Assembly (NCBI GenBank): GCA_938048735.1
Contig: CALIUM010000008.1
Coordinates: 1-64,000 of the forward strand
From: an uncultured archaeon
GTDB taxonomy: Archaea; Thermoproteota; Bathyarchaeia; TCS64
Length of the DNA stretch: 64,000 nt
Direction: 5' to 3'
The notes under the pieces were generated by a model. It did no database searches, had not been told where the DNA came from, and saw only the letters and a program-made list of their open reading frames with translations. A program made the translations under genes and the position numbers. The stretch's first letter is position 1. Every line of letters starts with the position of its first letter. Below are positions 12,044-60,095 of this stretch, in pieces.

Positions 12044-12390
12044 TCAATTAATAACTATTTCAAAGCTTATATTTATTACCTATTCGAGGTATCGATAAGA
12101 AAATAAAAGATCTCTTTATTCCTTCAAGATTTGTGATGTTATAGATCTCCTTCTTACATAATCTCCAAAATCACATTTATATCTCTTCTTTTATATACAG
12201 GGACTCTATCTAACAGGGCATATTCATCGCTTTAAACCTTCTAACCTTTTGTTCCGTCCATCCCCTTCTCATTAGGCTCCATCATCACATATACTTCAAA
12301 GAGAACCTATGAGGCCGGATGTGTGAGCTACCCCCTTTGATAGCCCTCAACCCATGAGTTTGGAACCAATAGACATGAGGGGATTTGAAG
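12044..12390. other. intergenic region, about 350 bp
   Basis: Divergent spacer between the TPR-methyltransferase gene and the small helical-protein gene. AT-rich, with TATA-like stretches, and the GAGGGG Shine-Dalgarno sequence of the downstream gene at about 12377-12382. No RNA gene, repeat or reading frame with a recognisable product was found. Confidence 0.5.
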
Positions 12391-12840
12391 ATGTTCAACT
12401 TGATCAAGTCCAAAAAGGTCCTCGGAAAACTTTATAGATGGTTGAAGATAGAATTATTCGGATTGTTCAGGGGTCTGGAGCTCACGCCTGAGGAAGAGGA
12501 GGAGATCATTAAAAGGGTTGCTGAGAAGATATCGGAATATGGGATGAATGCTGCCGCTATCTTGATGCTGCAGACCTTCAAGCCCATGGCGTATATAGGT
12601 GGGCAGATGGGCCGCTTCTTCATCAGCCCCCTCCTCTACGGCCTGGGGGACAAGATCTCCCTGGGATCCGAGAAGTTATTCATGGTCTTCGAGAATCGAG
12701 ATAACATCGAAAAACTGATCAGGATGCTGGAGCAAAAGGCAGAAGAGGAGACGATGAAGAGAGAAGGGGCGGAGAAGAGGGATATGAATGAGGCGGTTGG
12801 AGGACCATTAAAGAGGTTAAGGCGTCTCTTCGGCATCTAA
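12391..12840 (+). CDS. conserved small helical protein, copy 1 of 3
   Basis: About 149 residues from the ATG at 12391, which has GAGGGG about 9 nt upstream; an in-frame TTG at 12385 is too close to it. After a basic N-terminus comes TPEEEEEIIKRVAEKISEYG, AAAILMLQTFKPMAYIGGQM, GRFFISPLLYGLGDKI and a Glu/Lys-rich tail ending RRLFGI. It shares the blocks EEEEEII, FKP/IKP-(M/L)-(A/T)YIGGQMGRFF, SP and VFEx(R)(D/E)N(I/V)EKL with the protein at 60703, and more loosely with 59784. The middle helix is hydrophobic enough for peripheral membrane contact. The 3' end overlaps the convergent MNT gene by 24 nt. No known family recognised; a link to the nearby membrane cassettes is inferred from location only. 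Confidence 0.75.
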   Translation: MFNLIKSKKVLGKLYRWLKIELFGLFRGLELTPEEEEEIIKRVAEKISEYGMNAAAILMLQTFKPMAYIGGQMGRFFISPLLYGLGDKISLGSEKLFMVFENRDNIEKLIRMLEQKAEEETMKREGAEKRDMNEAVGGPLKRLRRLFGI

Positions 12841-14873: not shown

Positions 14874-15509
14874 CTAATAGGGTATGCCTAATAATGCCCT
14901 TATGAAGTTCACCACGTTCTCTGTCCATGTTCCGAGTGCGGTTATGAACCAGCCGAACTCCATCCCCCAGGAGACACCCAGTCCAGCCATCATTATTATT
15001 CGCCCGAACCTAGCTAGGCCTCCGTAAACTCCTACATGCTCCCTGGTGTATATGAAGTACATTATGGCGCAGAGGGTTGCTATGCCAGCGAATAAGGCGG
15101 AGGCCACCGCGAATGGGACCTTGGCCGCGATCATCTCCTCCCCTATGCTCCTGACCTGCCCAACTATCTGGGCCTCAAGTGCCCCTCCCACAAGGATTCC
15201 TATTCCTATCGCCGTTAGGAGCGCCGTGGGATACCTCGCTATCCATCCCCATGGCGTCAACCTCCCGAAGGTGAGGATAGCTAGGAATAGAGGTATGACC
15301 AAGAGAATCCTCCCAGCCATTATGGAGTCCAGCGCCGTGGTCTTCACTGCTAGGAGGCCGTACATCAGCGAGTGGGCGCAGCCGGCCCCTATGACTATAT
15401 GCTCAATCAGCCTGTAGTATGGGTTTTCCCTCCAGACGAGGGTCATTATCCCGACGGCCATTAGGCTGGACCAGCCCAGCCAGAAGAGTTCCCACGACAA
15501 GCCTCTCAC
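14874..15509 (-). CDS. membrane cassette 1, subunit D (polytopic membrane protein)
   Basis: 211 residues, about six hydrophobic helices. It carries the subunit-D signature near the N-terminus: WRENPYYRLIEHIVIGAGCA, equivalent to YRENIFYRIGEALLVG in copy 2 and YKDNYLYRLAQHIFLG in copy 3. A central RYPTALLTAIGIGILVGGALEAQIV segment (charged RYP/RWP plus Gly-rich helix ending in QI(V/I)RQ) is also shared. It overlaps subunit C by 4 nt (ATGA type), so it is translationally coupled. No known family recognised. The fixed order A-B-C-D in all three copies says it is a structural partner of the complex rather than a passenger. Confidence 0.8.
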   Translation of the reverse strand: MRGLSWELFWLGWSSLMAVGIMTLVWRENPYYRLIEHIVIGAGCAHSLMYGLLAVKTTALDSIMAGRILLVIPLFLAILTFGRLTPWGWIARYPTALLTAIGIGILVGGALEAQIVGQVRSIGEEMIAAKVPFAVASALFAGIATLCAIMYFIYTREHVGVYGGLARFGRIIMMAGLGVSWGMEFGWFITALGTWTENVVNFIRALLGIPY

Positions 15510-16354
15510 TTCCTCCCTGACAGCCTCTTCCCCCAGTAGGCGATGTTCCCTATCAGCACCAGCACTAGGGTGGGGATGGATGCGAGGTTTTTCATGTCTG
15601 TGATCTTCGCCGCGAGGGCTGGCTCGCCGATGAAGCTCTCCATCGCCGCGCCCCCCGTCGGGCCTGATAGATATCCCTTGGTCATCCCCGCCACCCAGTA
15701 GGATACCGTGCTCATCTCGTTCCCTGAGGCGGTCATCCAGAGCTGAGGAATCTCAGGGTGGGTGGCATACCACTGCCTCACATACTTGTCCATGGCTGTG
15801 CCCGTGGAAAAATTAACGAAGATCGCGGAGAAGTCCTTCCAGCTATCAACCTTCTGCATGAGTGGGATCTGGTCTAGTGGGGTTCCCAGGTAATCTGTTG
15901 AGACCCTGGCGCGAATGCTGTCTCGGAATCCGGCCACCATGACCTCCTCCCCTGGGACATAGCCTAGGAAGACATAGTTCTCGCCGTACTTCACGCCGAA
16001 CCTCTTCGGGTTAGCGTACTCTATACCCCAAAGGGAGGTGGGAGCGGCGTCGGCGTAGACTGCGACTATGACCACGTTTATCTTTTTAGACCAGAGGTAC
16101 TTGAGGGTGGCCGTGAAGCTTCCCTTGGTCTCATCCCAACCGCTTCCCGACATCTCCTGGAAGAATAGTACGTTCGACCCTGGAGGTATCTCCTTTATCG
16201 CTTTGATATAATCCGCGGCTGGAGCTCCCACGGGCACCGGAAGCCCGAGGGGGTAGAGTATGGGGATTATGAGGCACGCGAAGACCGCGATCGCCACACC
16301 CCACTGCGGGACGTCCAGGAGCCTATCCCAAACTGTCTTCTCCTTCCCAGCCAT
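15506..16354 (-). CDS. membrane cassette 1, subunit C (membrane-anchored alpha/beta domain)
   Basis: 282 residues: one transmembrane helix near residues 17-38, a soluble domain of about 200 residues, and a second helix near the C-terminus (LVLVLIGNIAYWGKR). The soluble part has alternating strands and helices (GSNVLFFQEMSGSGW, INVVIVAVYADAAP) and blocks shared with copies 2 and 3: KYGENYVFLGYVPGEE (KYG.(D/N)(Y/W)VN.G(Y/W)(V/I)(P/A)G), STDYLGTPLDQIPLM (xDAYGNxIxxLPL(M/I)), and STGT near residue 186. With a helix at each end, the domain lies on one side of the membrane; I infer the outside but cannot prove it. Function unknown; no catalytic motif recognised. Confidence 0.8.
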   Translation of the reverse strand: MAGKEKTVWDRLLDVPQWGVAIAVFACLIIPILYPLGLPVPVGAPAADYIKAIKEIPPGSNVLFFQEMSGSGWDETKGSFTATLKYLWSKKINVVIVAVYADAAPTSLWGIEYANPKRFGVKYGENYVFLGYVPGEEVMVAGFRDSIRARVSTDYLGTPLDQIPLMQKVDSWKDFSAIFVNFSTGTAMDKYVRQWYATHPEIPQLWMTASGNEMSTVSYWVAGMTKGYLSGPTGGAAMESFIGEPALAAKITDMKNLASIPTLVLVLIGNIAYWGKRLSGRK

Positions 16355-16366
16355 TCCGCTACCACC

Positions 16367-17002
16367 TCATATTACCGCTGTTCTCTCCTTCTGTATGATG
16401 GTTCGCAGGCATACGACGACGCTTATCAGGGCCGCTGTGAGGACTGCAACTCGGGCTGCTGGGGTCATGACGTACCTCAAGAACCAGTCTCCGATGCCGG
16501 TCATGGGTGGGAATATGGCGCATATGATGGGCATCTCCTTCAGGAAGTAGGACATAGCCCCTATGAGCAGGGCTAGGGCCTCTAGGTTGGAGACCCTCAT
16601 CGCGCGGTATACGCCCATCGTCGAGAAGATTAGGTTCAGGCCCCAGAGGGTGGTAGTGGCCGGGATAATCGTCCTCATATACATGGTGACATACTGGGTA
16701 CTACTTAATCCTATTCCATATCCTATACCGAGGAAGACGAAGAAGGCTACGATGGCAACTATGCTGTAGTATCTCGCCCAGGGCTCACGAGAGGGGGGTT
16801 TCACGATTCTTAGTGAGTGGTATCTCAGCATAAGGGCCGAGCCCAGGAGGGTAACAAAGTTATATATTATCACCCCCCAGGTCAGCATCTCCTTCCTGAA
16901 ATCGGCTAGGGGTCCCAATGCGATGAAGTATTCAACTATCAAGATGAATGCTATGATGGAGATTATGTACATGGGGATCTGCGTCCTAATGACTACCGCC
17001 AT
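16367..17002 (-). CDS. membrane cassette 1, subunit B (polytopic membrane protein)
   Basis: 211 residues, about six transmembrane helices. Shared with copies 2 and 3: an LxRYH segment after the second helix (LMLRYHSLRI; FRYHLNNI; LARYHVALI), followed by a basic loop and a VFLGIGYGIG-type helix, and a C-terminal G(D)W...(V/T)P/MT...R motif before the last helix, here GIGDWFLRYVMTPAARV. It starts 11 nt after subunit A and ends 12 nt before subunit C. Copy 1 is the most divergent of the three B proteins by eye. No known family recognised; a membrane scaffold or channel part is only inference. Confidence 0.78.
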   Translation of the reverse strand: MAVVIRTQIPMYIISIIAFILIVEYFIALGPLADFRKEMLTWGVIIYNFVTLLGSALMLRYHSLRIVKPPSREPWARYYSIVAIVAFFVFLGIGYGIGLSSTQYVTMYMRTIIPATTTLWGLNLIFSTMGVYRAMRVSNLEALALLIGAMSYFLKEMPIICAIFPPMTGIGDWFLRYVMTPAARVAVLTAALISVVVCLRTIIQKERTAVI

Positions 17003-17013
17003 CTCCTACCCCC

Positions 17014-17790
17014 CTACATCTTTAAGAGGCTATTTAGCGCCGGGTTTCCCATAAGGCCCAAGATGATGCCGATGACTCCTAGGGCTATCAGGAACATCTT
17101 CACGACATCCTCCCCAGCCAGGCTGGCGGTCATCCCGGGATCTCCAGACACCAACGTTCCGGCTGCTAGAACCTCCTCACAGATCAGGACATAGTCACAG
17201 GTTATGGCCTGCCCATACATTGCCGTCCACCTCGTGGTCCCCCCGATGTTTATCGCACCTATCTGCCTAGCCACAGCGTGGCTCTGGATCTCCGTGTAGA
17301 AGACCCCAATCTGGACGTTGAGTGCTACGTTGTTCCTGAGAACCGTCCCACACCTGGCGATCTTATAGGCAGACGGACCATAATATAGGATGTTCTCCTC
17401 CTTATACAGCTCAGGCTTCCCCTCCTCTCTATAAGCCTCCCGGGCTATCCCCTGGACCAGGGGGATAATCTCAGCAACCCCTGGGAGGCTCGTGTAGACC
17501 GGGACCTCATGCTTGGCTGCGAGCTTGAGCGTGTACTTATAGATGTTCAGGGCGGAGACGACGGCTGGCCCCCACTCTCCCGAGATCTGGCCGAAATCGC
17601 CTGGTGCATAGTGCATGGGTCTGCCCATCTCCGCGCACCTCCCTATCCCCTCCTCGATGGCATCTATCGCAGGTATCTTCCGAATCTTGGGTAGAGGCCT
17701 CCCCTTCGAGACAAGCCATAGGTAGTACCCCATCATCGCAGAGAGAAGTGCTACAACTATCAGTTCGGAGATAACACCTGCTTTAAGCAT
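17014..17790 (-). CDS. membrane cassette 1, subunit A (DUF6754-like)
   Basis: 258 residues; a transmembrane helix at about 10-28 and another at the C-terminus flank a conserved domain. Conserved with copies 2 and 3: KIRKIPAIDAIEEGIGRCAE followed by MGRPMHY, YGPSAYKIA, INIGGTTRWTAMYG, and CDYVLICEEVLAAG followed by SGDPG and GEDVVKMF (consensus CDY..I.EE..AAG...SG.P.......G.D..K). I recognise the DUF6754-type pattern; the function of that family is not known to me. The conserved Cys-Asp-Tyr/Glu-Glu cluster could be a functional site. First gene of the operon, with an AT-rich promoter region just upstream of 17790. Confidence 0.82.
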   Translation of the reverse strand: MLKAGVISELIVVALLSAMMGYYLWLVSKGRPLPKIRKIPAIDAIEEGIGRCAEMGRPMHYAPGDFGQISGEWGPAVVSALNIYKYTLKLAAKHEVPVYTSLPGVAEIIPLVQGIAREAYREEGKPELYKEENILYYGPSAYKIARCGTVLRNNVALNVQIGVFYTEIQSHAVARQIGAINIGGTTRWTAMYGQAITCDYVLICEEVLAAGTLVSGDPGMTASLAGEDVVKMFLIALGVIGIILGLMGNPALNSLLKM

Positions 17791-18314: not shown

Positions 18315-19673
18315 CTACCAGGCACTCATCTCCCTGAGAACCGTATCCGGCACCCTCCCCTTCGTGACATCCTCTATGGAGTCCTCCAGGATGCTCAGGG
18401 CCTTTTCAAGCTCCTCATTTCCTATGGTTAGGGGTGGGGCTATCCTCAGCACGTTTCCGAACCTTCCGAAGGAGATCATGACCAGCCCCTTCTCCCATGC
18501 CCTCCAGCAGACCTTCAGGGCCTCCGCCCTAGCGGGCTCCCTGGTTCTCCGGTCCTTGACCAAGTCTACGCCTATGAGGAGCCCCCTCCCCCTGGCTTCG
18601 CCTATCAGTTCGAAGCGTTCCATGAACTCCTCAAGCCGCTTCATCACATAGCCTCCAACCCTCTCAGCCCTCTCATGAAGCCTCTCCCTCTCCATCACCT
18701 CCAGGGTTGCGATGGCAGCTGCGCATGAGACAGGGTTTGCCTCGGTGGTGAATAGGTGGGCCGGTGCAGCCCATCGCTCCATCAGCTCGCTCCTAGATAT
18801 TATGGCGCTCATGGGGAGGCCTGAGGCTATGGGCTTGGCTACCAGGACGGCGTCGGGCTCCACCCCCCAGTGCTCAATAGCGAACCATCTCCCAGTCCTG
18901 CAGAACCCTGTCTGAACCTCCTCATCTATGAATAGGATACCATGCTCCTCGCATATCCTCTTCACCTCCACCCAGAAATCCTGGGGTGGAACGATAACTC
19001 CAGCATCTCCCTGGATCGGCTCTAGGATGAGGGCTGCAACCTCATCAGGTGGGATCAACAACCTCAAAAGCTCCTTCATGTACCCTATGCAGTGGAGGCC
19101 GCAGCCCGGGTGCTCTAGGCCGAAGGGGCACCTGTAGCAGTCAGGGTAGGGTATATGGTATACCTCTGGGAGGAGTGGGCCAAGCCTCCTCTTCATGTTG
19201 GGGGAGGCGGCAGAGAGGGTCAGGGCGCCGTATGTGGTTCCATGGTACGAGCCAAGGTAGGAGATGATCTTCTGCCTCCCCGTCGCCGATCTGGCAAGCT
19301 TTATGGCCCCGTCGTTGGCATCGGAGCCGGAGAGGCCGAAGGCCACCCTCTTCCTGAACCCTCCTGGGGTGAGGCTTGCCAGCCTCTCCGCCAAGATGAC
19401 GGGAAGCTCGTAGTAGGAGTATCCCAAAGTGTTGTGAATAAACCTCTTGGCCTGGCTCTCTATCGCCCTTACCACCTCAGGGTGGCAGTGGCCTATGTTT
19501 GTGACGGCCGCGCCCGATAGGAAGTCTATGTACTCGTTCCCGTCGGCATCCCAGATCTTCGCCCCCTCCGCCCTTGAGACCACAAGGGGATAGTAGGCCA
19601 ACCTGCTGGCCTGGGATATGACCCTACGGTCTCTCTCCACAACCTCTAGACACTTCTTCAAGGATCTATCCAT
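18315..19673 (-). CDS. class III aminotransferase, racemase-like paralogue 2
   Basis: 452 residues from the ATG at 19673 (MDRSLKKCLEVVERDRR); the open frame extends 41 codons further upstream but that part is unlike the family. PLP signatures: LSGSDANDGAIKLAR, FIDEEVQTGFCRTGRW and Schiff-base Lys280 in VAKPIASGLPM. The archaeal cysteine insert PYPDCYRCPFGLEHPGCGLHC is shared with the paralogue at 2098, and both resemble archaeal amino-acid racemases of the aminotransferase III fold. About 820 bp away, divergently, lies N-acyl-D-amino-acid deacylase, and a near-identical 25-30 bp sequence precedes both genes. This supports a role in D/L-amino-acid interconversion, though ordinary transamination is possible. 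Confidence 0.85.
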   Translation of the reverse strand: MDRSLKKCLEVVERDRRVISQASRLAYYPLVVSRAEGAKIWDADGNEYIDFLSGAAVTNIGHCHPEVVRAIESQAKRFIHNTLGYSYYELPVILAERLASLTPGGFRKRVAFGLSGSDANDGAIKLARSATGRQKIISYLGSYHGTTYGALTLSAASPNMKRRLGPLLPEVYHIPYPDCYRCPFGLEHPGCGLHCIGYMKELLRLLIPPDEVAALILEPIQGDAGVIVPPQDFWVEVKRICEEHGILFIDEEVQTGFCRTGRWFAIEHWGVEPDAVLVAKPIASGLPMSAIISRSELMERWAAPAHLFTTEANPVSCAAAIATLEVMERERLHERAERVGGYVMKRLEEFMERFELIGEARGRGLLIGVDLVKDRRTREPARAEALKVCWRAWEKGLVMISFGRFGNVLRIAPPLTIGNEELEKALSILEDSIEDVTKGRVPDTVLREMSAW

Positions 19674-19740
19674 CGAACATCCCAAACATCTCAGCCCCCT
19701 TATCCTTAAAAAGATACATCCGGCCAGCCCAAAGCTCAGA

Positions 19741-19770
19741 AGAAGTTTTAAATGAGCTGAGGGGAAATCC
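19741..19770 (+). repeat. promoter-like repeat, copy 1
   Basis: AGAAGTTTTAAATGAGCTGA followed by GGGG and AAATCC. Copy 2 at 20456-20485 differs at only a few positions. Copy 1 sits about 70 nt upstream of the second aminotransferase, copy 2 directly upstream of D-aminoacylase. It could be a duplicated promoter or a shared operator. In copy 1 the plus-strand continuation soon reaches an ATG at 19783 that opens only a 19-codon frame. Confidence 0.6.
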
Positions 19771-19850
19771 TTGAAAACAGCATGGGTGATCTTCAACCCA
19801 TAACTACAGCCTTCAAAATAGTAACGATAGCTTTGCCATAGGATGGAGGC

Positions 19851-20497: not shown

Positions 20498-22153
20498 ATG
20501 GGCTATGAGATTCTGATCAGGGGAGGGAGGGTATTCGACGGATCCGGAGGAGATTGGTTCTACTCCGATATAGGCATTTCAGATGGAAGGATAGTCTCGA
20601 TGGGTAGACTTGGGGATGCTAGGGCTGAGAGGGTCATAGAGGCAGGAGGCCTCGCAGTCTCCCCGGGCTTCATTGACACCCACTCCCACACAGATGTCAC
20701 GATAATGCTGTTCCCAACCTCGGACTCAAAGGTGATGCAGGGGGTCACCACGGAGGTTGTTGGGAACTGTGGCCTATCCCTCGCACCCATAAAGGGCGAC
20801 TTGGAACTCCAAAGGAGGTATGTGGCGGCCTTCCACCCGGAGATGGCATCCCTCCTCCCATGGAGCTGGAGGAGCCTTGGAGAGTACTACCAGGCCGTTG
20901 AGAGGCTAGGCATCTCCGTCAACCTTGCCCCACTCATCGCCGCCGGGAACGTGAGGATATCAGTCATGGGCTTCGAGAACAGGCCCCCAACAGAGGGGGA
21001 GATCCAGGAGATGAGGGAGATTGTGGAGGAGGGGATGAGGGAGGGGGCCTTCGGCCTGAGCACAGGCCTCGTCTACCCACCGGGCGTATTTACAAAGACC
21101 GAGGAGATCATAGAGCTTGCTAAGGTAGCTGCCAGATACGGGGGCATATACTCAAGCCACATCAGAGGAGAGGGGGACACCCTCCTCCAGTCAGTCCTGG
21201 AGGCTATAGAGATAGGAAAAAGGGCCGGAATTCCGATCCTGATATCCCATATAAAGGTGATGGGGAGGGGCAACTGGGGGATGAGCGGCAAGATCCTCTA
21301 TGAGATAGAGAGGGCTAGGGAGGAGGGGATAGACGTTAACGCGGATCAATACCCCTACACAGCAGGCTCAACGGTGTTCTCGTCTATCCTTCCTCCATGG
21401 GCCCAAGAAGGAGGAATCCATAAGCTACTGGAGAGGCTTGGAGATCCAGAATCTAGGAAGAGGTTGAGAAAGGACCTAGAGTCGGAGATCCCAGGATGGC
21501 AGAACTGGGTTAAAACCCTCGGATGGGAGAGCTTCAAGATGATATCCTTCAACAGGGAGGAGAACAAGAAGTACCTGGGAAAGACTATCCCGGAGATAGC
21601 ATCCATGATGGGAAAGGACCCCTTCGAGGCGGCCATGGACCTCATCCTTACTGAGGATGGAGGGCCCATGACGGTCATCTTCTACGGCTCAGAATATGAT
21701 GTGGAGACCTACATGAAGAGCCCCCATGTGATGATCTCAACAGACGCCTTCGGCTCCTCACCCACAGGACCCATAGACCTGGGTCTCCAACACCCCAGGA
21801 CATATGGCACATATCCAAGGATCCTAGGCAGATACGTGAGGGAGAGGGGGCTCCTCACACTAGGAGAGGCCATAAGGAAGATGACCTCCCTCCCAGCGAG
21901 GAAGATAGGCCTCATGGACAGAGGCCTCCTCAGGCCCGGCATGTGGGCAGACATAGTAATCTTCGACCCAGCAACGGTGATAGACACAGCAACCTACGAA
22001 GACCCCCTCAAATACCCAAGGGGGATAAGATATGTGTTAGTAAACGGAGAGGTAGTCGTTGAGGAGGGCAAACACACAGGAAAAAGGCCGGGAAAGGTCC
22101 TCAGAAAGACTCCCCTGTCTAACTCGCCATCCCAGGGGCTCTCCAAGTGTTAG
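20498..22153 (+). CDS. N-acyl-D-amino-acid deacylase (D-aminoacylase), amidohydrolase superfamily
   Basis: 551 residues. Starts with the urease-like beta-sandwich (GYEILIRGGRVFDGSGGDWF), then the metal-binding strand GFIDTHSHTDVTI, then EVVGNCGLSLAP as in D-aminoacylases, GLSTGLVYPPG, YSSHIRGEG and HIKVMGRGNWG with further metal-ligand His residues, DAFGSSP, and a C-terminal GLLRPGMWADIVIFDP strand that closes the sandwich. The order matches DAN-type D-aminoacylase / N-acyl-D-glutamate deacylase; a dihydroorotase-like role is less likely. It frees D-amino acids from N-acyl forms, which the nearby racemase-like aminotransferase could then convert. Cytoplasmic, no signal peptide. Confidence 0.86.
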   Translation: MGYEILIRGGRVFDGSGGDWFYSDIGISDGRIVSMGRLGDARAERVIEAGGLAVSPGFIDTHSHTDVTIMLFPTSDSKVMQGVTTEVVGNCGLSLAPIKGDLELQRRYVAAFHPEMASLLPWSWRSLGEYYQAVERLGISVNLAPLIAAGNVRISVMGFENRPPTEGEIQEMREIVEEGMREGAFGLSTGLVYPPGVFTKTEEIIELAKVAARYGGIYSSHIRGEGDTLLQSVLEAIEIGKRAGIPILISHIKVMGRGNWGMSGKILYEIERAREEGIDVNADQYPYTAGSTVFSSILPPWAQEGGIHKLLERLGDPESRKRLRKDLESEIPGWQNWVKTLGWESFKMISFNREENKKYLGKTIPEIASMMGKDPFEAAMDLILTEDGGPMTVIFYGSEYDVETYMKSPHVMISTDAFGSSPTGPIDLGLQHPRTYGTYPRILGRYVRERGLLTLGEAIRKMTSLPARKIGLMDRGLLRPGMWADIVIFDPATVIDTATYEDPLKYPRGIRYVLVNGEVVVEEGKHTGKRPGKVLRKTPLSNSPSQGLSKC

Positions 22154-36120: not shown

Positions 36121-36777
36121 TTACTCCTTTTTTATAAGGTTGTCCACTATTATCAGTATTATTGCGACTATCGAGGCGTAGAGGCCGGGTGGGCGGACTA
36201 CAGTAGGTATCAGTGATATCGCGAAGCCTATGTTGGACATGAGGAATAGGCCGAGGGTGGTTCCGAAGCAGATCATCATGGAGTAGATCCCTAACTTTGC
36301 GACAGGGGCTAGGGCGCCCTTATGCTCGAAGGTGTAGAGGAAGTATGCTAGGGATGTTATGGCCGTCACTAAAAGGATGAGGTTATTGACACCGGTGAAA
36401 ATGTCCTTGGTAAATAGGCTCCCAATGTCGAGCTGCCTTACAATCTGGGCCATTACGGCCCCCTTCATCGCGACCCCTAGGCCCGCTCCTGAGAGGAGGG
36501 CTATGGGCCACCGGCTAACCCACCAGAGGCTCTTGGAGAACCTGGTATACATCATGAGGCCGAGGGCCACCGCTATCAGTGTCGGGCTGAGCCACTGCTG
36601 CTTTACCACGATAGGGATGTATATCCTGTTGAAGAGCACGTCTAGGCCCACCTTGACCGATATGGCTAGGGCAAGGCCGACGAGCAGAGCCTCGCCTATC
36701 CTGTAGAATATGTTCTCCCTGTAGAGGAAGGACCAGGCCATGAGGATAACTATGCTCATGACAAGGGCATCTATCAA
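36121..36777 (-). CDS. membrane cassette 2, subunit D
   Basis: 218 residues, about six transmembrane helices. Subunit-D signature YRENIFYRIGEALLVGLALA near the N-terminus and WPIALLSGAGLGVAMKGAVM with AQIVRQLD after the third helix, as in copies 1 and 3. FEHKGALAPVAKLGIYSMMI corresponds to FTREHVGVYGGLARFGRIIMM-like segments of copy 1. Overlaps subunit C by 4 nt. No known family; function unknown. Confidence 0.8.
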   Translation of the reverse strand: MIDALVMSIVILMAWSFLYRENIFYRIGEALLVGLALAISVKVGLDVLFNRIYIPIVVKQQWLSPTLIAVALGLMMYTRFSKSLWWVSRWPIALLSGAGLGVAMKGAVMAQIVRQLDIGSLFTKDIFTGVNNLILLVTAITSLAYFLYTFEHKGALAPVAKLGIYSMMICFGTTLGLFLMSNIGFAISLIPTVVRPPGLYASIVAIILIIVDNLIKKE

Positions 36778-37610
36778 CCCTTACCACCCCTTCTCCTCGT
36801 GAAGTACCAGATGTTCCCGATGATTATCAGTCCGACCCCGTATATGTGGGATAGGGTCTGGGCGTCGAGGGTTCTTAGGCCCTCTCCGGGCATCCCTGTG
36901 AGCTTCTCATATCCCGCCGCATCGCTCTCAGCCCCTATATACCCCGTTATCAGCCTCTTCTCGTAATATGGAAGCGTCCAGGGGACCGTCGCGATGAGCG
37001 TGTTGATTATCAAAGGCTTGCCGTAACCTCCAAGCTGCCTGGGGTATGGGTCCGGGCTCGTCGAGGTGGAGAACCCGATCAGGGCTATATCGGAGATGGA
37101 GCGGACATCTCTCAACATGGGCAGTTTATCGATGGTGTTTCCATACGCGTCTGTTTTGACGATGCCCTGGAAGTCCTTAGCCATGGCCATGAGGGTGGTC
37201 TCGTATCCCGGGATCCAGCCTAGGTTCACGTAGTCCTCGCCATACTTCAACCCCCTAGTGTCTACATACTCCCTCAGGATCCTCTCGGCGTTGAGGGAGC
37301 CATCCACGCTGTAGGTGGTCACTATGATCACCTTGATCCCCTTCCTCCTGATAAGGTCGAATAGGTGGCGGTATATGGCCACCTCGGCTGGGCCTACCTG
37401 CCCCCAGGTGCCGACCGAGAAGTCGGTTATCCACATCGCGATGTCTCCGCTTTTCAGATCCTCTATCTGCCTGTATACCTCAACGGTGTTTGAGCTGATG
37501 CTTATCGGGAGGCCTAGGGGGGAGATAGCCGGGATGGCGATCAATATGATGAAGATCATGAAGACAGCCCTATCTACCAGTGGAATACCGGTTCTCTGCA
37601 CCTCATCCAC
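36774..37610 (-). CDS. membrane cassette 2, subunit C
   Basis: 278 residues from a GTG at 37610. N-terminal helix (VFMIFIILIAIPAISPLGLP), soluble alpha/beta domain and C-terminal helix (IYGVGLIIIGNIWYFTRRR). Blocks shared with the other copies: LKYGEDYVNLGWIPGYET, VKTDAYGNTIDKLPMLRDVR, IGFSTSTSPDPYPRQLGG and TLDAQTLSHIYGVG (C-terminal; (M/L)DAQ(S/T)xSH in copies 2 and 3). KVIIVTTYSVDG is a hydrophobic strand. Starts 8 nt inside the end of subunit B. The DAQ-SH motif in front of the last helix is a possible functional site. Confidence 0.8.
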   Translation of the reverse strand: MDEVQRTGIPLVDRAVFMIFIILIAIPAISPLGLPISISSNTVEVYRQIEDLKSGDIAMWITDFSVGTWGQVGPAEVAIYRHLFDLIRRKGIKVIIVTTYSVDGSLNAERILREYVDTRGLKYGEDYVNLGWIPGYETTLMAMAKDFQGIVKTDAYGNTIDKLPMLRDVRSISDIALIGFSTSTSPDPYPRQLGGYGKPLIINTLIATVPWTLPYYEKRLITGYIGAESDAAGYEKLTGMPGEGLRTLDAQTLSHIYGVGLIIIGNIWYFTRRRGGKG

Positions 37611-38214
37611 CTCCCAGATATGAACGTTCTCTGCCTATTATTGCCCTCATGAAGAGGACGATCATGCTGATCCCCATCCCTATCAGGATCCCCCTATATG
37701 CCCCAGTGTTAGGAACGTTCTTTATCCAATCGCCTACTGTTATCAGCTGAGGGGAGAGCGCTCGGATGCTCGGGGTGTTGTAGAGCAATATAACTACGGT
37801 GACGATGAGCAGTAATATGGCCGTCGGAGACTTCAGCCTCGCCCCCCTGAGGAAGACGGTGTAGGTGTAGAAGCCGACGAAGGATGATATCGACATGCTC
37901 AAAGGCGTGTAGAGCTTGGAAAAGATCCAGTCATATATGCTCTTATTCAGGTAGGCTATTGCAAGATAAAATAAGAAGCTTCCGATTACCAGTACGCTGT
38001 AATATACGTCTCTCCCCTTCCTTATGTTGTTTAAGTGGTATCTGAAGAGGTTCACAACCCCTATAAGGTATGAGAATGTAACGAGTATAACCACCCAGCT
38101 CAAGAGCTCAGAGGCCTGCACGGATAGGTTTCCAGTGTAGTAATCAATCAGCGGAAGCAAGGAACCTATGGCGAACAGAATTATGGGGATCTCTATCCTC
38201 CTGAGAAAACTCAT
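37603..38214 (-). CDS. membrane cassette 2, subunit B
   Basis: 203 residues, six transmembrane helices. Shared B features: FRYHLNNIRKGRD after helix 3 and VGDWIKNVPNTGAYRGILIG before the last helix (xxDWIxxVPNxxxYRxIxIGxG in copies 2 and 3). Ends with a basic RAIIGRERSYLGGG tail, matching LILRKEVTWMG in copy 3. Lies 6 nt after subunit A and overlaps C by 8 nt. No family known to me. Confidence 0.8.
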   Translation of the reverse strand: MSFLRRIEIPIILFAIGSLLPLIDYYTGNLSVQASELLSWVVILVTFSYLIGVVNLFRYHLNNIRKGRDVYYSVLVIGSFLFYLAIAYLNKSIYDWIFSKLYTPLSMSISSFVGFYTYTVFLRGARLKSPTAILLLIVTVVILLYNTPSIRALSPQLITVGDWIKNVPNTGAYRGILIGMGISMIVLFMRAIIGRERSYLGGG

Positions 38215-38220
38215 CTCACC

Positions 38221-39000
38221 TCACCACGCTGAGAGATAACCTATCAGGTTGAATCCGGCTGTGGAGGCAGCGGCCGCCAGTATGAAGAGAGCTATAAGGA
38301 TTATCTTGTAGAGGTCCTGACCCCTGAAGTAGCCAATGGAGCCCGGGCTCCCCTCGAGGGCGGCCCCTGCTACGTAGAGTTCCTCTCCTATCAACAGGTA
38401 GTCGCAGACGCATATCATGATCGGGATGTAATAGAGCCTAGGGGTTCCTCCCAGCTGCATGCATCCAGCTATGGCTCCCGCCCCGAGTTGGTTTATAGTC
38501 TCCCATAGGGTCGCCCCGAATATCATGTTCACGGCGGGCCTCTCCCTCAATATGTACCCCATGACCGAGGTCATGAAGGCCGTCTGATACTCACCAACAT
38601 AATACACCATGTCTGGGGAGTACATGTCTGGATTCCCACTCTTCATATAACCAGCCTTGATGATGTCCTGAGCCACGGGCACGAGGTACGCTCTAGGTGT
38701 AGTGTATCTTAAATAGACCCCTGCCTTGCCGCAGGTCTCAGCCACCTTGCCGAGGATGGCCAACCCAGAGAGCGTCATGGGGGCATACTGGTCATCGGTT
38801 CCTCCGATCCCAGTGGTATAATGGACCGGCCTGTTCATCTCCGCAGCCCTCCCAACAGCCTCCTCAATGGCCTCCAGCGCTGGAAACTTCCTGATGCGAT
38901 ATCTAGGAACTCTTTTCTCAGCGCTCTTCATGTAGAAGTAAGCCAGTCCGATGCATATCACCATCAGTAAAAGCTCAAACTTTTTCCCCGAAAGAATCAT
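38221..39000 (-). CDS. membrane cassette 2, subunit A (DUF6754-like)
   Basis: 259 residues. An N-terminal helix (LLLMVICIGLAYFYMKSAEK), then RIRKFPALEAIEEAVGRAAE and MNRPVHYTTGIGG, TLSGLAILGKVAETCGKAG, FGATLWETINQLGAG, MQLGGTPRLYYIP, and CDYLLIGEELYVAGAALEGS followed by RGQDLYKIILIALF. The block order is identical to copies 1 and 3; copies 2 and 3 look closer to each other than to copy 1. First gene of the operon; an AT-rich region lies upstream. Confidence 0.82.
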   Translation of the reverse strand: MILSGKKFELLLMVICIGLAYFYMKSAEKRVPRYRIRKFPALEAIEEAVGRAAEMNRPVHYTTGIGGTDDQYAPMTLSGLAILGKVAETCGKAGVYLRYTTPRAYLVPVAQDIIKAGYMKSGNPDMYSPDMVYYVGEYQTAFMTSVMGYILRERPAVNMIFGATLWETINQLGAGAIAGCMQLGGTPRLYYIPIMICVCDYLLIGEELYVAGAALEGSPGSIGYFRGQDLYKIILIALFILAAAASTAGFNLIGYLSAW

Positions 39001-45444: not shown

Positions 45445-45448
45445 TGAG

Positions 45449-47078: not shown

Positions 47079-47225
47079 GGGTTATTATTATTTTTCCATC
47101 ACCTCTTTAATTGAATATTATATCAATTATTGACTAGAGGATAACTGAATCTGGAGATCGGAAACAAAGGAAACTTATACTTAAGATCATAAAAATAAGT
47201 TTATTCAAGGATTTAGACTCAACAC

Positions 47226-47672: not shown

Positions 47673-47725
47673 GTGAAGTAGACTACCCTAGACTACTCTA
47701 CACTGTCCCTTTCAAAATGAGGGGG

Positions 47726-48084: not shown

Positions 48085-48091
48085 TGACTGT

Positions 48092-53393: not shown

Positions 53394-54536
53394 TTATTCT
53401 GTAACTATTTCTACGTCAGCTCTAGGAATTATAACTCTTTTTCCATCTTCTAATTCCACTTCCACTACTCTTACAAGTGACTCTGTTTCTATCTTCATCA
53501 ATTCCACTGGGAGCCGAACGACTCTTCCTAATTTTCCGAAATATGGGTACCTTATTATCCTGATAATGCTTCCAACTTTCATTTTTCCTTCTTCAACATC
53601 TTCATCCTCGATTTTCATTTTTCCACTTAAATTTTTAGGTATTATTATTTCTGGTCTTAGTACCCCTGCTCTGACCTGTGTTGCTCCATTTATAGCCGCG
53701 ATTTTCCCTTCATTATCCTTTAATATTTCGAATGCCTTATCTGATATTGGAAGTTTTCCAAATCCCTCTGTTAATATCAATGTAAATCCCAATTCTTCCC
53801 TTCCAGTTATAGCTACTCCCATTCTAGTACCTATTAGCTTTTCAAGGTCTTCTATATCAGCTCCACCCGTTATTATTCCCTTAACACCTATTTTCCTCGC
53901 CTTCTCTAAAGCGTCTAGGTTTACAAATGATCCTCCTACTATTATTTTCCCATGATCACTTTCGAAGATTTTATCTGGGGTAAGTATATCTTCTGGGTTT
54001 GAGACGGCTACTCTGAGTTCTCCGAACCTCTCTCCTGAAAATCCTATGATACCCTGTACATAGGCGGCCCATGTCCCAACGACGACGGCCTCTTGGGGTA
54101 TCACCTCATCTATTTTTCCCCTAACATAAGCAGCAACCTCAACCGGTCTTTGAGGTTCTCTTATTGTGATGTTTCCTGTTATTTCATTTATATCCTCCAC
54201 ATATCCATCTATAGGTGACAATACTGTCTTGTTTATTAAACCAAATGCTGCTCTTAACCTTGCTATGATCTCTCCTTTCTTCACAGGATCACCCTTCTTC
54301 TTAAGGAGATATCGAGGCACCTCTTCCGTATCTACATCTAGTAGTTCAGCCACCTTCAGTATCTGGGGCATCCCCTCCAGATAGCATCTCGCCACAATAG
54401 TATCAAACTCAACAGGGTCTCCTACTTTAACCAATATCTGGCCTTTAACCGGAAGACTTCTGAGCTTCCTCACATAGGTAAGAGGTGTGACCCTTAATCC
54501 AGGTGTATATGCGAAGCTCTCTTCTGAGACGCTCAT
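53394..54536 (-). CDS. barrel-sandwich/KOW-domain protein, partner of the GlmL-type ATPase
   Basis: 380 residues from the ATG at 54536, which overlaps the ATPase stop (ATGA) with GGAGAAAGGG upstream; an ATG at 54551 is less likely. N-terminal: short repeats (GQILVKVGDPVEFDTIVARC) and a barrel-sandwich-hybrid unit like biotinyl/lipoyl or RnfC-type domains (KKGDPVKKGEIIARL, SPIDGYVEDINEITGNITIR). Middle: alpha/beta (GIIGFSGERFGELRVAVSNP, GKIIVGGSFVNLDALEKARK). C-terminal: a KOW-type motif (GSIIRIIRYPYFGKLGRVVR). No known name. Its fixed, coupled position after the ATPase points to a shared complex. AT-richer than the far end of the same operon. Confidence 0.75.
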   Translation of the reverse strand: MSVSEESFAYTPGLRVTPLTYVRKLRSLPVKGQILVKVGDPVEFDTIVARCYLEGMPQILKVAELLDVDTEEVPRYLLKKKGDPVKKGEIIARLRAAFGLINKTVLSPIDGYVEDINEITGNITIREPQRPVEVAAYVRGKIDEVIPQEAVVVGTWAAYVQGIIGFSGERFGELRVAVSNPEDILTPDKIFESDHGKIIVGGSFVNLDALEKARKIGVKGIITGGADIEDLEKLIGTRMGVAITGREELGFTLILTEGFGKLPISDKAFEILKDNEGKIAAINGATQVRAGVLRPEIIIPKNLSGKMKIEDEDVEEGKMKVGSIIRIIRYPYFGKLGRVVRLPVELMKIETESLVRVVEVELEDGKRVIIPRADVEIVTE

Positions 54537-56362
54537 AAACCCTTTCTCCATTCTTCAATTTTACTTTCTGGATACAGCTCTATGGAGTCATACCAACTGA
54601 TTAAAAGCTTCTTTCTTTCTTTTTCATCTTCTGGGAGATATATGGGTCTTCCTCTTCCGTCAAATATGACCCCGACCACTCCTCCACTGATAGTCCTTTC
54701 AACCGATTTTCCAAAGCCATTTCCAAAGTCAAAGTTGCTCGAGGGATTAACTCTAATTTTAACATTTATTTCTTTGGGGATAGGTTCTCTTATTATCTGT
54801 CCGAATGATAGGTCGAATGTCTTTTTTTTATCATCCCATTCTAGTTCGATGGTTGCTACCTTTGCACCTATCTTGTCTGTTCCCACGCCTGCCACAATGG
54901 TTCCCATGTAGACTAGGCACTCCTTCTCGAATATATCTAGGGCGATCTCTTTTTGGATTGTTGAGAGGACCCCGAGGTGGGGCATCATGAATACGCTGTC
55001 CTGGAGGAGAGAGGTGAATCCCCTCGGCTGGAATGCGTCTGTGAGTATCATCATAGATTGATTTCTTCTCGGTGCTCTCGATAGGAGCCCTCCGGTTCCT
55101 ATTATATGGCTCACATCAAACATCTCTATATATGTGTCCTCGGGTTTAACCTCTTCGAATATGTCCGATATAGTCCTCTCCTTCTTAACCCCCTTCAACT
55201 CCCTTGCCAAGTATTTGTGATGGTTGAACCCCAGCCTTATAGCCTCCCTAGCTAGGGAATGTTCGATCACCAGATCTTCCACCGTTATTGGGATTGTTGT
55301 GGGCCGTATCATCTTGTTGTAGACCACCTCCATTAGATCTTTAACATCCATCTCGAATGGGATCCATCTCAGGACGTTCTCCGCACCCGCCTCTTTAAAG
55401 ACATTTCCGACGCTGTAGCTCATCCCTAGATTGGCGCTGACCGTGCGTAGGAACCTGCCCTCGAAGTTCGAGTATATGTTGGTTGTCGCACCTCCCAAAC
55501 CGACTCCTATCACGTTCACCCCCTTCATCTCGGAGAAGGTCCTGATCATCATCCCCTCACCAGCGGGTGTAGGCATGATTGAGGTGGATACGAGCTTCTT
55601 CAGCTTGTCATATCCAGGTGCATGGGCCATAACATGCTCCATGAAGAGATACAGTATAGCATTTCTAGCCTGCTCCACCTCCTCGACCTCTATCTTTGGG
55701 CGAAGGTTGTCGGTTATTATGACTTCAAAGTTGTCCCTGAGCATCTTCTTAACCTCTTCTCTCACGGCAACATTGCCAGCATAGACGACGGGTAGGAGAT
55801 ATTCAGCCCCTAGCCTTGGCCTTGGCCTCGCCTTCGAGAGCAGCTCGGTCATCTCCAGAACATGAGTCTTATCTCCCCAATCCGTCCCCCCGGCCAGGAG
55901 GACGATATCCGGCCTCAGAAACCTAAGGGTCTCTATCTTATAGTAGTCATCCCTTCCATCGTCGACAGATAACACATCCATGACTATCGCCCCGGCTCCG
56001 AGGGCGGCCCTCTGGGCGCTCTCCGCGGTTATGGATTTGACAACCCCTTGGACAAGCATCTGGAGCCCTCCCCCAGCGCTACTCGTGGAGACATAGATGT
56101 CCACCCCGACTTTATCCCCCTTGTATGGCATTAGGATAGAGAGCTCCTCCTTGGCGTTATCCATGATCATGTGGCCTGTTAGCTCCTCGACCTCCCTAAT
56201 GGCGTTTCTGACGCCCATGGTGACATCCTCCACGGGCTTCTCGACCGTTGTGGGGGCCTCTCCACTGGCTATGAACCTCCACCGCCCATCTACCTTACCG
56301 AAGAACCTGGCCTTCGTAGTGGTGCTTCCCACATCAGTCGCAAGTATGTAGCTCGGCTCCAT
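54533..56362 (-). CDS. GlmL/MutL-type ASKHA ATPase (orphan)
   Basis: About 609 residues from the ATG at 56362 (AAGGGG just before); the frame is open upstream to 56449 but with unconserved codons. YILATDVGSTTTKARFFGKV is the phosphate-1 motif of the actin/Hsp70/sugar kinase fold; GVGLGGATTNIYSNFEGRFL and IIGTGGLLSRAP are phosphate-2/adenosine-like loops. Matches the 'glutamate mutase L' (GlmL/MutL) family, an accessory/reactivation-like ATPase for B12-dependent carbon-skeleton mutases in bacteria. No glmE, glmS or other mutase gene is in the window. Instead the gene is coupled to the KOW protein and stands head to head with membrane cassette 3, 260 bp away, so I infer an energising role there. 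Confidence 0.82.
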   Translation of the reverse strand: MEPSYILATDVGSTTTKARFFGKVDGRWRFIASGEAPTTVEKPVEDVTMGVRNAIREVEELTGHMIMDNAKEELSILMPYKGDKVGVDIYVSTSSAGGGLQMLVQGVVKSITAESAQRAALGAGAIVMDVLSVDDGRDDYYKIETLRFLRPDIVLLAGGTDWGDKTHVLEMTELLSKARPRPRLGAEYLLPVVYAGNVAVREEVKKMLRDNFEVIITDNLRPKIEVEEVEQARNAILYLFMEHVMAHAPGYDKLKKLVSTSIMPTPAGEGMMIRTFSEMKGVNVIGVGLGGATTNIYSNFEGRFLRTVSANLGMSYSVGNVFKEAGAENVLRWIPFEMDVKDLMEVVYNKMIRPTTIPITVEDLVIEHSLAREAIRLGFNHHKYLARELKGVKKERTISDIFEEVKPEDTYIEMFDVSHIIGTGGLLSRAPRRNQSMMILTDAFQPRGFTSLLQDSVFMMPHLGVLSTIQKEIALDIFEKECLVYMGTIVAGVGTDKIGAKVATIELEWDDKKKTFDLSFGQIIREPIPKEINVKIRVNPSSNFDFGNGFGKSVERTISGGVVGVIFDGRGRPIYLPEDEKERKKLLISWYDSIELYPESKIEEWRKGL

Positions 56363-56583
56363 CCCCTTCAGCTCTCTAACCTGAGGGATTAATATAAAAA
56401 CAATACGTCTTGTGGGTTCTGAACCCCCTCGAATAGCAGGCTTCGGCAACTTAACCTTGATGTAAGGATAAGATTATGCCTTGAAACTCGAGGACACTCG
56501 GCATTTTATCAACTCCACTGGAATTAGTCGATCTCTCAAACATACAAGGCAAGATCCATGAGATCCGATCTCAGACCACGACA

Positions 56584-56622: not shown

Positions 56623-57432
56623 ATGTTATTGAACTATCTCCCCGTTGAGCAAGTGATAAACCCTGCAGCTGGAGCCGTTTCCCTGGCTATTCTAATCTTC
56701 CTGTCGCTCTCAGGATACTATTATATGAAGCTTGCAGAGAGGGGTAGAACCTTCCCGGTTAGGAAGATCAGGGCCTTCGAGGCTATAGAAGAGGCCGTTG
56801 CAAGATCGGTTGAGATGGGGAGGCCAGTGCACTACACCATCGGCTATGGAAGCCTCAGGACGGCTCATGCCCCCCAGTACACCGCCGGTCTTGGGGTTTT
56901 AACCCATGTTGCCAAGCTTGCAGGGAAGTATGGAGCAAGGCTGATAGTGACACATGGGGTGCCCGAGGCCATAGCCTCTATTGACGAGATAGTCAGAGAT
57001 GGGTACTTCTCCGAGGGTAGACCTGAGCTCTATAATCCTGTGGACAACGCGAGATATCTCACCGACATCCAGTTCGCCTACGCCTCATCTGCCCAAGCTG
57101 TCATTATAAGGGAGAATGCTGGTGCGAACATAGTTATCGGCCCCTTCTGGGCCGAGTCTCTGATACTGGCCGAGGCTGGGACTATGGTCGGGGCCTTCCA
57201 GATAGGTGGAACCGCCAGGGATGTGCAGATCCCATTCTTCGTACTTGTCTGTGACTATGCCTTCATAGGGGAGGAGATCTTCGCCGCGGGAGCGATGGCC
57301 TCCGGTGACATCCCCACTCTAGCAAGCATTAGAGGGCAGGATGTTGGCAAGCTGCTCTCCATCGTGCTCATAGTGCTCGGGTTGATACTACTTCCTTTCG
57401 GTGTGAAGCTTGCCACATACCTCATGTGGTGA
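56623..57432 (+). CDS. membrane cassette 3, subunit A (DUF6754-like)
   Basis: 269 residues. N-terminal helix (AVSLAILIFLSLSGYYYMKL), then FPVRKIRAFEAIEEAVARSV and EMGRPVHYTIGYGS, QYTAGLGVLTHVAKLAGKYG, SEGRPELYNP, EAGTMVGAFQIGGTARDVQI, CDYAFIGEEIFAAGAMASGD followed by IRGQDVGKLLSIV, and a C-terminal helix. This is the clearest copy. Leaderless TATA promoter. The GRPVHYT and CDY.FIGEE blocks are conserved in all three copies, so are likely functional. Confidence 0.83.
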   Translation: MLLNYLPVEQVINPAAGAVSLAILIFLSLSGYYYMKLAERGRTFPVRKIRAFEAIEEAVARSVEMGRPVHYTIGYGSLRTAHAPQYTAGLGVLTHVAKLAGKYGARLIVTHGVPEAIASIDEIVRDGYFSEGRPELYNPVDNARYLTDIQFAYASSAQAVIIRENAGANIVIGPFWAESLILAEAGTMVGAFQIGGTARDVQIPFFVLVCDYAFIGEEIFAAGAMASGDIPTLASIRGQDVGKLLSIVLIVLGLILLPFGVKLATYLMW

Positions 57433-58106
57433 TGGAAATGAGCGTGATTTGGAGGCGTACAGTTCCGCAGCTCCTCGTGGCCATCATACTTGTTGTGATG
57501 ACGGCCCTCTATTTCCTGTACATAGACAAGACGACCAAGGCGACCCTAAACTATTGGGATCAGCTTCTGATCAACTATTCGATAGTGATAGCGGCTCTGG
57601 CCGCAATCGTTGGAGGGGTTGACCTCGCAAGGTATCACGTGGCCCTGATTATGAAGAGGGAGAGGGAGCAGATCCCCTTCAGTTTAATAACCCTATTCCT
57701 TGAGGTGGTCTGCGTTGTCTTCGCTTTCTATGCACTCGCCACAGGGGTCCCCATTCTCACCCAACCCCAGTTCTCCTGGATATATCTAAACCTACAGGTA
57801 CCCACGAGCTCGGCCATGTACTCTATCTTGGTATTTTACGTTGCTTCGGCTGCCTATAGAACCTTTAGGGCTAGAAATCCTCCAGCCCTTCTCCTACTCA
57901 TAGTAGGTGTCATAGTGATGCTTGGGAACACTAGCTTAGGATTTGTAATATGGCCTGGGTTCACACCCCTGAAGGACTGGATAATGACGGTTCCAAATGC
58001 AGCCGGCTATAGGCCAATAGTCATAGGAGTAGGCTTGGGAACCATCATCCTAGGCCTGAGGTTAATCCTAAGGAAAGAGGTAACATGGATGGGGAGGAGG
58101 GACTAA
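57432..58106 (+). CDS. membrane cassette 3, subunit B
   Basis: 224 residues from the ATG at 57432, overlapping the A stop (TGATG); the frame also opens with GTG at 57426. Six helices; VDLARYHVALIMKREREQIP after helix 2 and LKDWIMTVPNAAGYRPIVIG before the last helix are the B signatures. Ends with a basic LILRKEVTWMGRRD tail. Co-translated with A and C. Confidence 0.8.
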   Translation: MEMSVIWRRTVPQLLVAIILVVMTALYFLYIDKTTKATLNYWDQLLINYSIVIAALAAIVGGVDLARYHVALIMKREREQIPFSLITLFLEVVCVVFAFYALATGVPILTQPQFSWIYLNLQVPTSSAMYSILVFYVASAAYRTFRARNPPALLLLIVGVIVMLGNTSLGFVIWPGFTPLKDWIMTVPNAAGYRPIVIGVGLGTIILGLRLILRKEVTWMGRRD

Positions 58107-58108
58107 AG

Positions 58109-59783: not shown

Positions 59784-60095
59784 ATGGAGGAGAATAATGC
59801 AACCGACGTATGGCTCTCTTCAATAGCAGAAAAATTGGTCAACCTTAATCTCGACTCGGTGGCCGTCTTCTTCCTCGAGACCTTTGGGCCCATGAGCAAT
59901 GTCTGGAGCCAGCTTGGTAGGCTCCACCTACAGCCTTTATTGATCCTTCTAGGCCCCTCCGGAGAGAGGCTGATGAGCTTCCTAGAGAAGCCGGAGAACT
60001 TGGAGAGGTTTTTGAAGAAGATAGAGGAGGTGAGGGAGAGAAAAACTAGGAGGCCGTGGATGGGCGGTCTATTTAGAAGGTTATTTGGATCTTAA
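59784..60095 (+). CDS. conserved small helical protein, copy 2 of 3 (divergent)
   Basis: 103 residues: WLSSIAEKLVNLNLDSVAVF, FLETFGPMSNVWSQLGRLHL, QPLLILLGPSGERLMSFLEK and ENLERFLKKIEEVRE, with a basic GGLFRRLFGS end. The pattern (helix, F-E-x-x-x-P-M, Q-x-G-R, P, GxxxE, E-x-x-E-N-x-E-x-(F/L)) matches the copies at 12391 and 60703, but EEEEEII is lacking. It follows cassette 3 in the same direction, so it may be part of the same system, perhaps a soluble or membrane-associated partner. Confidence 0.7.
   Translation: MEENNATDVWLSSIAEKLVNLNLDSVAVFFLETFGPMSNVWSQLGRLHLQPLLILLGPSGERLMSFLEKPENLERFLKKIEEVRERKTRRPWMGGLFRRLFGS

Follow-up and report, generated by a model that had tools for sequence, protein, structure and literature searches.

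The 64,000-nucleotide stretch analysed here (the window: positions 1 to 64,000 of contig CALIUM010000008.1, assembly GCA_938048735.1, from an uncultured archaeon of the Bathyarchaeia) carries three copies of a four-gene cassette, A-B-C-D. Copy 1, on the minus strand at 14874-17790, is a paralogue that split off long ago, has stayed intact and is under purifying selection. We tentatively propose that the four subunits form a membrane complex that transports solutes, and that individual cassettes are specialised by substrate; this is a real possibility to which we give somewhat less than an even chance. A stronger result than the divergence of copy 1 is that ABCD appears as the membrane part of a wide, uncharacterised and apparently undescribed system, E-MutL-BSH-ABCD, whose other members are a small protein (E), a MutL-type ATPase and a protein with a barrel-sandwich-hybrid domain (BSH). 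With moderate confidence, we consider a transporter to be the best reading of this system.

The four open reading frames (ORFs) of copy 1, A (17014..17790), B (16367..17002), C (15506..16354) and D (14874..15509), are tightly packed on the minus strand with intergenic gaps of 11, 12 and -4 bases. The A-B-C-D gene order recurs in copy 2 (36121-39000, minus strand; A 38221..39000, B 37603..38214, C 36774..37610, D 36121..36777) and in copy 3 (56623-59661, plus strand; A 56623..57432, B 57426..58106, C 58085..58951, D 58948..59661). Subunit A of all three copies exceeds the curated cut-off of 27 bits for the Pfam family PF20539 (DUF6754), with scores of 135.2, 197.9 and 234.5 bits in copies 1, 2 and 3, respectively. 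In copies 1 and 2, no Pfam family scored above its cut-off for B, C or D. When wider sets of B, C and D members were compared with Pfam, the best-represented family was a weak ABC TMD0 match found in 3 of 39 B members (best 2.3e-4). All three copies match hidden Markov models (HMMs) of the four subunits in A-B-C-D order; the models were seeded from copies 1 to 3, which match them by construction, and they are informative for other cassettes alone. The order was strict in 86 of the 108 clusters of the bathyarchaeal genomes.

These 108 clusters yielded 105 cassettes with a usable subunit, of which 89 had all four subunits in the trees, the double cluster G001:C2 being counted twice; the loci of the window's own genome (G000) on C5, C10 and C15 are omitted from the tree rows. 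Named genomes contributed 80 of 83 external rows: L139, L151 and L210 were dropped as bathyarchaeal duplicates, and L205 lacked D. Across the 89 cassettes, the distances for any two subunits were correlated with r of.90-.93. When cassettes were shuffled within genomes, r reached at most.39, and 0 of 500 shuffles matched the observed r for each of the six pairs. The earlier note had proposed agreement among the subunits as a check on co-duplication, and this agreement was borne out: the four subunits have co-evolved and duplicated as blocks. The nearest out-of-genome cassette was identical for all four subunits in 47 of the 89 rows, with two answers in 26 and more in 16. Because the four agree in only these 47 rows, fine-scale mixing of subunits between cassettes may also have occurred.

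In concatenated trees, both of the 89 cassettes and of 169 rows including the 80 from named genomes, copies 1, 2 and 3 form three separate lineages. Orthologues that are 95-97% identical to each copy occur in G001 and G002, which belong to the same genus, and copy 1 additionally has one in G008. Copy 1 falls within a 14-row bathyarchaeal clade spanning several genera in the concatenated, A and B trees; this clade has a support of.15 in the D tree and is not found in the C tree. Copy 2 groups with other bathyarchaeal cassettes, and its five-row group is present in the concatenated, B, C and D trees and absent in the A tree. Copy 3 groups with one Desulfurococcaceae and one Sulfolobales cassette in the concatenated and all four subunit trees. 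Since the Desulfurococcaceae and Sulfolobales loci likewise carry MutL, BSH and E, this kinship suggests horizontal transfer of the whole system.

The separate lineages and the orthologues in other genomes support an old duplication rather than recent copying, as had been proposed for copy 1. The accompanying picture of one local family, in which copies 2 and 3 form a close pair, did not survive. A clade of the three copies, corresponding to local triplication of one cassette, was rejected by the approximately unbiased (AU) test (p-AU 1e-55). Direct sisterhood of copies 2 and 3 was also rejected (p-AU 6e-7), because copy 3 goes with the Desulfurococcaceae and Sulfolobales cassettes and copy 2 with other bathyarchaeal cassettes. 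The AU test is compatible with the copy-2 and copy-3 groups joining at a deeper level (p-AU.32). In a 44-row tree, a quick IQ-TREE result under a mixture model and rooted on bacteria, copy 2 shared one half with copy 1 (support 89) and copy 3 fell in the opposite half (support 86). When the three copies were taken as quartets with one bacterial row, which differs from tree to tree, the concatenated tree and those of A and D separated copies 1 and 2 from copy 3, the B and C trees separated copies 1 and 3 from copy 2, and no tree joined copies 2 and 3 against copy 1. As the quartets differ between trees, the deep branching order of the three copies is not fixed.

Each of the four subunit trees, and the concatenated tree as well, places copy 1 farther than copies 2 and 3 from the 77 bacterial rows, in keeping with the view that it is the most divergent of the three. 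In G001, another cassette is about equally isolated, with its nearest paralogue at.29 compared to.30 for the copy-1 orthologue. Pairwise identities for the pairs 1-2, 1-3 and 2-3 were.274,.251 and.325 in B,.296,.296 and.344 in C, and.274,.268 and.300 in D. Copies 2 and 3 are thus nearest each other in B, C and D. The earlier note had stated this for A, B and C; in A, the values were.312,.370 and.370 and the pairs 1-3 and 2-3 tie.

The motifs on which that comparison was based exist, and VPN and DAQ-SH are missing from copy 1. In B, copies 2 and 3 have DWI..VPN...YR where copy 1 has DWFLRYVMTPAAR, and in C they have DAQ..SH where copy 1 has DMKNLAS. In A, CDY..IGEE and RGQD of copies 2 and 3 correspond to CDYVLICEE and AGED of copy 1. 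Absence of the motifs is not a hallmark of copy 1, however, because parts of them are likewise missing from most of the remaining 75 bathyarchaeal cassettes: N of the B motif is present in 21 and P in 33, and Q of the C motif in 8 and H in 47. Within the 14-row copy-1 clade, the counts are 4, 7, 1 and 0, respectively, compared to 75, 69, 74 and 75 in the 80 external rows. These residues look like old states that copies 2 and 3 have retained and that many bathyarchaeal lineages, including that of copy 1, have lost. Since VPN and DAQ-SH are the majority state outside the Bathyarchaeia, sharing them says little about kinship. The R of RGQD occurs in 10 of the 80 external rows and is thus not the majority state. 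Among 160 columns in which copies 2 and 3 agree and copy 1 differs, the external majority has the shared residue in 84 and the residue of copy 1 in 20; for comparison, the residue shared by copies 1 and 2 matches the external majority in 48 of 112 columns and that shared by copies 1 and 3 in 44 of 115. Collectively, the earlier observations are partly supported: the difference that they describe is largely real, and the relation among the three copies is unlike that proposed.

The ratio of nonsynonymous to synonymous substitution rates (dN/dS) relative to orthologues is.051-.073 for copy 1 and.036-.080 for copies 2 and 3, and copy 1 is thus under purifying selection. If copy 1 were simply a duplicate of copies 2 and 3 that drifts fast or decays and has not specialised, its loss of conserved positions would be accounted for. 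Among columns with at least 80% conservation in the external rows, copy 1 keeps 41 of 80 in A, 24 of 46 in B, 20 of 42 in C and 17 of 40 in D, compared to 49, 25, 27 and 20 for copy 2 and 61, 35, 34 and 22 for copy 3. Decay is contradicted by dN/dS, which stands at.05-.07 with orthologues in three genomes. The four frames are intact, the 14-row clade extends across several genera and the three copies form no clade, so that we regard mere drift or decay as very improbable.

In copy 1, subunit A is predicted to consist of one N-terminal transmembrane segment (TM), a Rossmann-like domain and a C-terminal TM, and subunit C of a TM, a Rossmann-like domain and a second TM. B and D are predicted to be polytopic, with ~5-6 and ~5 TMs, respectively. 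Positive-charge bias places the A domain inside in 166 of 169 rows (from its first TM) and the C domain outside (120 versus 16 and 140 versus 8 of 169 rows), predicting a cytoplasmic A domain and a C domain outside the cell. The folds were taken from models of the copy-3 paralogues of A and C, which have predicted local distance difference test (pLDDT) scores of 92.6 and 93.5. The A model best matched Sir2 (Z 11.7, root-mean-square deviation (rmsd) 3.5, 142 residues) and, amid Sir2 and other Rossmann-like matches, also the RCK domain of MthK (Z 8.8-10.2, rmsd 2.8-3.5, 111-118 residues). The best match of the C model was 1kjn (Z 10.4, rmsd 3.4, 141 residues), and further matches were TrkA (Z 9.4), CODH epsilon (9.2) and transhydrogenase domain III (8.4). 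On these models the A and C domains are Rossmann-like and nothing more specific; enzyme or transporter identity was sought from the folds and rejected, the matches being generic. Distant sequence homology was likewise rejected between A and C (hhalign probability 1.7%) and between B and D (0.6%), and no convincing solved-structure relative was found by sequence for A, B, C, D or MutL.

In the transport mechanism that we favour, the Rossmann-like domain of C would be presented outside the cell and that of A in the cytoplasm, with B and D together forming the membrane path. The MutL-type ATPase and BSH, encoded beside copy 3, would be common to several cassettes and would use ATP to energise, assemble or reset the complex. 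Each cassette, having duplicated long ago as a block, would have specialised for a different small molecule, the copy-1 lineage probably handling an amino compound that is passed to the neighbouring class III aminotransferase and amidohydrolase. The presence of up to 15 paralogues per genome is a point for a transporter. We also count in its favour the steady A-B-C-D order, the joint occurrence of MutL and DUF6754, the correlated subunit distances, the low dN/dS, the confident copy-3 models, the charge bias and the gene neighbourhoods described below. The functional specialisation that the earlier note had suggested is plausible, although its basis is genomic context only.

The placement of the two Rossmann-like domains, one to each side of the membrane, would also suit a sensor or regulator, in which C binds a ligand outside, A answers in the cytoplasm and MutL and BSH form the output. 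The A model matches RCK gating domains (Z ~10, ~115 residues), BSH ends in a KOW-like region as in the transcription factors SPT5 and NusG, and the paralogues adjoin catabolic genes. However, two polytopic subunits exceed the needs of a sensor, and among A-D, E, F, MutL and BSH none matched a Pfam domain for classical signalling or for DNA-binding output. We consider this function improbable.

The MutL-type ATPase is encoded divergently from copy 3 (54533..56449, minus strand), matches PF13941 with 385.9 bits (cut-off 27) and is a neighbour of ABCD in bacteria. It scored below the NCBIfam cut-offs for GlmL (209.5 against 475 bits), OR-4 (225.1 against 600) and the GlmL subfamily (145.8 against 204.05). 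The BSH gene (53394..54551, minus strand) encodes a barrel-sandwich-hybrid (RnfC_N-like) domain and a KOW-like C-terminus; the RnfC_N score of this protein is 17.2 bits, below the cut-off of 25.6. The similarity of the BSH C-terminus to SPT5/NusG (E.003-.03) is odd for a partner of membrane proteins. Compared with solved structures, BSH also gave one part-match to geranylgeranylglyceryl phosphate synthase (.01). Downstream of copy 3 lies E (59784..60095, plus strand), which has HMM matches in bacterial operons. Protein clustering identified the small protein F (60245..60655, plus strand), a second E-type small protein (60703..61068, plus strand) and an E-type small protein near copy 1 (12385..12840, plus strand).

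A scan of named genomes gave at least 79 loci (the best 80 rows were retained), assigned by title to Bacillota, Planctomycetota, Cloacimonadota, Zixibacteria, Marinimicrobia, Aegiribacteria, Bdellovibrionales, archaea and others. Among the 79 listed loci, ABCD was present in 72 and MutL with BSH, within the fetched stretch, in 27; an uninterrupted E-MutL-BSH-A-B-C-D order was found in 15 and ABCD followed by MutL-BSH in 3. Two or more ABCD cassettes occur at 10 of these loci (L142, L147, L153, L198, L214 and others), and the expansion is thus not archaeal alone. Many bacterial A ORFs (L152, L153, L156, L180 and others) have 350-490 aa, which by ORF is ~100-200 more N-terminal residues than in archaea. 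Across 61 genomes of the class, MutL and DUF6754 were both present in 27, DUF6754 only in 3, MutL only in 3 and neither in 28. Presence was concordant in 55 of the 61, an agreement that genome relatedness inflates. All 30 genomes with DUF6754 are from the window's own order. G039, from another family of the class and 78% complete, has a MutL match of 381 bits and no DUF6754 match. The window's genome has two MutL genes versus eight DUF6754 loci, so that the MutL module must be shared if it serves all cassettes. A further step would be to see in E-MutL-BSH-ABCD a new class of multi-subunit membrane transporter whose drive or reset would come from a MutL-type ATPase and not from an ABC motor. 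It would combine a shared ATPase module with many exchangeable, substrate-specific ABCD cassettes and extend across archaea and many bacterial phyla, copy 1 being the most remodelled lineage of the window. We think this rather unlikely.

The BSH domains also bear on a different function, namely that ABCD, BSH and MutL serve amino-acid catabolism as an enzyme bound to the membrane or as a complex that translocates ions, similar to Rnf/Nqr or to a decarboxylase, and that the paralogues differ in reaction or electron carrier and not in a solute that they transport. We give this a minor but appreciable chance. Among 17 BSH members, Pfam matched RnfC_N in 11 (E <=.01, best 4.9e-8), Biotin_lipoyl in 7 and NQRA_N in 3. 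The Rossmann-like domains of A and C would fit such an enzyme, as would the aldehyde ferredoxin oxidoreductase gene near copy 3, the putative 2-oxoacid ferredoxin oxidoreductase genes read near some cassettes, and the glycine cleavage and lipoate ligase genes that, by eye, adjoin some bacterial operons. However, Pfam matched none of 39 B and 36 D members to an Rnf/Nqr membrane subunit of the RnfD/NqrB type, and a cytosolic cofactor is unlikely at the predicted position of the C domain outside the cell. No cofactor motif was noticed, though no systematic search was made, and up to 15 paralogues beside varied hydrolases better fit a choice of substrates.

The neighbours of copy 1 are a class III aminotransferase (18315..19796, minus strand; PF00202, 376 bits), which lies upstream on the same strand after a 524-base gap, and an amidohydrolase (20498..22153, plus strand; PF07969, 108.3 bits) that is of the D-aminoacylase type by eye. 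Copy 2 has an M81 peptidase as a neighbour, and copy 3 has MutL, BSH, E, F and the aldehyde ferredoxin oxidoreductase. Enrichment was assessed in five bathyarchaeal genomes, around 37 cassette clusters and out to a distance of 6 kb. Cluster names such as M20, creatininase, ArgE and racemase are by-eye readings, M20 and aminotransferase being also family-searched. M20 peptidases near cassettes numbered 10 of 92 (expected 4.7, p.027), class III aminotransferases 5 of 37 (expected 2.0, p.044) and ABC ATPases 0 of 92 (expected 4.4, p.023). An aminotransferase neighbours 5 of 14 members of the copy-1 clade versus 6 of 94 other clusters (p.005, uncorrected, one of 17 clusters tried), and it is found in two sub-lineages of the clade, on one side of the cassette or the other. 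E-type genes lie near 10 of 14 members of this clade versus 25 of 94 other clusters (p likewise uncorrected for the 17 clusters tried).

Several observations count against transport. We found no member with a tested function, and B, C and D had no clear link to a transporter family, the weak ABC TMD0 matches being the sole hint. The copy-3 A and C models had no Foldseek match at E <=.001, their structural matches being generic Rossmann. RnfC/NqrA-like BSH domains would also be in keeping with an ion pump or a redox complex. DUF6754 without a MutL match occurs in three genomes, one of which (G007) is 94% complete. The neighbour enrichments are weak (p.02-.04), with G000 and G001 not independent; the chosen enzyme neighbours occur at just 67 of 108 clusters; and 9 of 14 members of the copy-1 clade lack the aminotransferase, three of the five carriers being close orthologues. 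An ABC-ATPase-like cluster (by eye; L196, L202 and others) occurs at 10 of the 79 listed named-genome loci, and some bacterial copies adjoin glycine cleavage, lipoate or fatty-acid genes, again by eye. At L167, L171, L180, L208 and L212, and at L152, L154 and L161, the genes read in this way are gcvT/H/P with lipoate ligase, or nadC/birA with plsX/fabH/fabD.

The eight loci with subunit A in the window's genome correspond to nine DUF6754 matches, two of which are pieces of one locus, and its congener G001 has 15 matches. The loci on C10 and C15 look broken, which may reflect assembly errors: G000:C10:12233-15200 (L042) has stops in A and a split B, and G000:C15:69005-69562 (L043) has a stop and contains just part of A. 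Intact cassettes sharing the neighbours of these loci occur in G001 (C2 and C10). At the locus on C5, A is short and D is split. At 45344-51678, in the stretch that separates copies 2 and 3, unknown ORFs are flanked by two or three others resembling, by eye, tyrosine recombinases; this region is perhaps an integrated element.

The ABCD gene set is spread as widely as Planctomycetota, Bacillota and Bathyarchaeia, and a single small genome can hold up to 15 paralogues. In the titles and abstract openings of the open PubMed Central literature, we found nothing on DUF6754/PF20539, on glutamate mutase L with transport or on the ABCD system. If these cassettes are transporters, they could explain nutrient uptake by these archaea, and a MutL-type ATPase would be paired with membrane proteins, a pairing that to our knowledge is not found in any described transporter. 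The orthologue groups, conserved columns and lineage-specific losses are direct targets in the search for residues that set specificity.

Several known systems resemble parts of this one. From general knowledge, ABC, TRAP and peptide uptake systems likewise comprise several operon-encoded membrane paralogues near catabolic genes; the present cassettes differ in that no ABC ATPase lies within 6 kb of them in the five bathyarchaeal genomes, and that no permease or binding-protein family was recognised besides the weak TMD0_ABC match in 3 of 39 B members. With regard to the barrel-sandwich-hybrid subunits RnfC and NqrA, 11 of 17 BSH members match RnfC_N, the BSH protein of the window itself scoring below the cut-off; BSH differs in its KOW-like C-terminus, and Pfam shows no Rnf/Nqr membrane partner. 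MutL/GlmL proteins (PF13941) are accessory proteins of B12-dependent mutases, and MutL-type ATPases have the ASKHA fold. The ATPase adjoining copy 3 belongs to the same Pfam family but lies below the GlmL and OR-4 cut-offs and is linked to membrane proteins. Finally, all three A subunits are members of PF20539, and whereas the Pfam entry describes a single domain of unknown function, subunit A here is one of four co-evolving subunits within a larger gene set.

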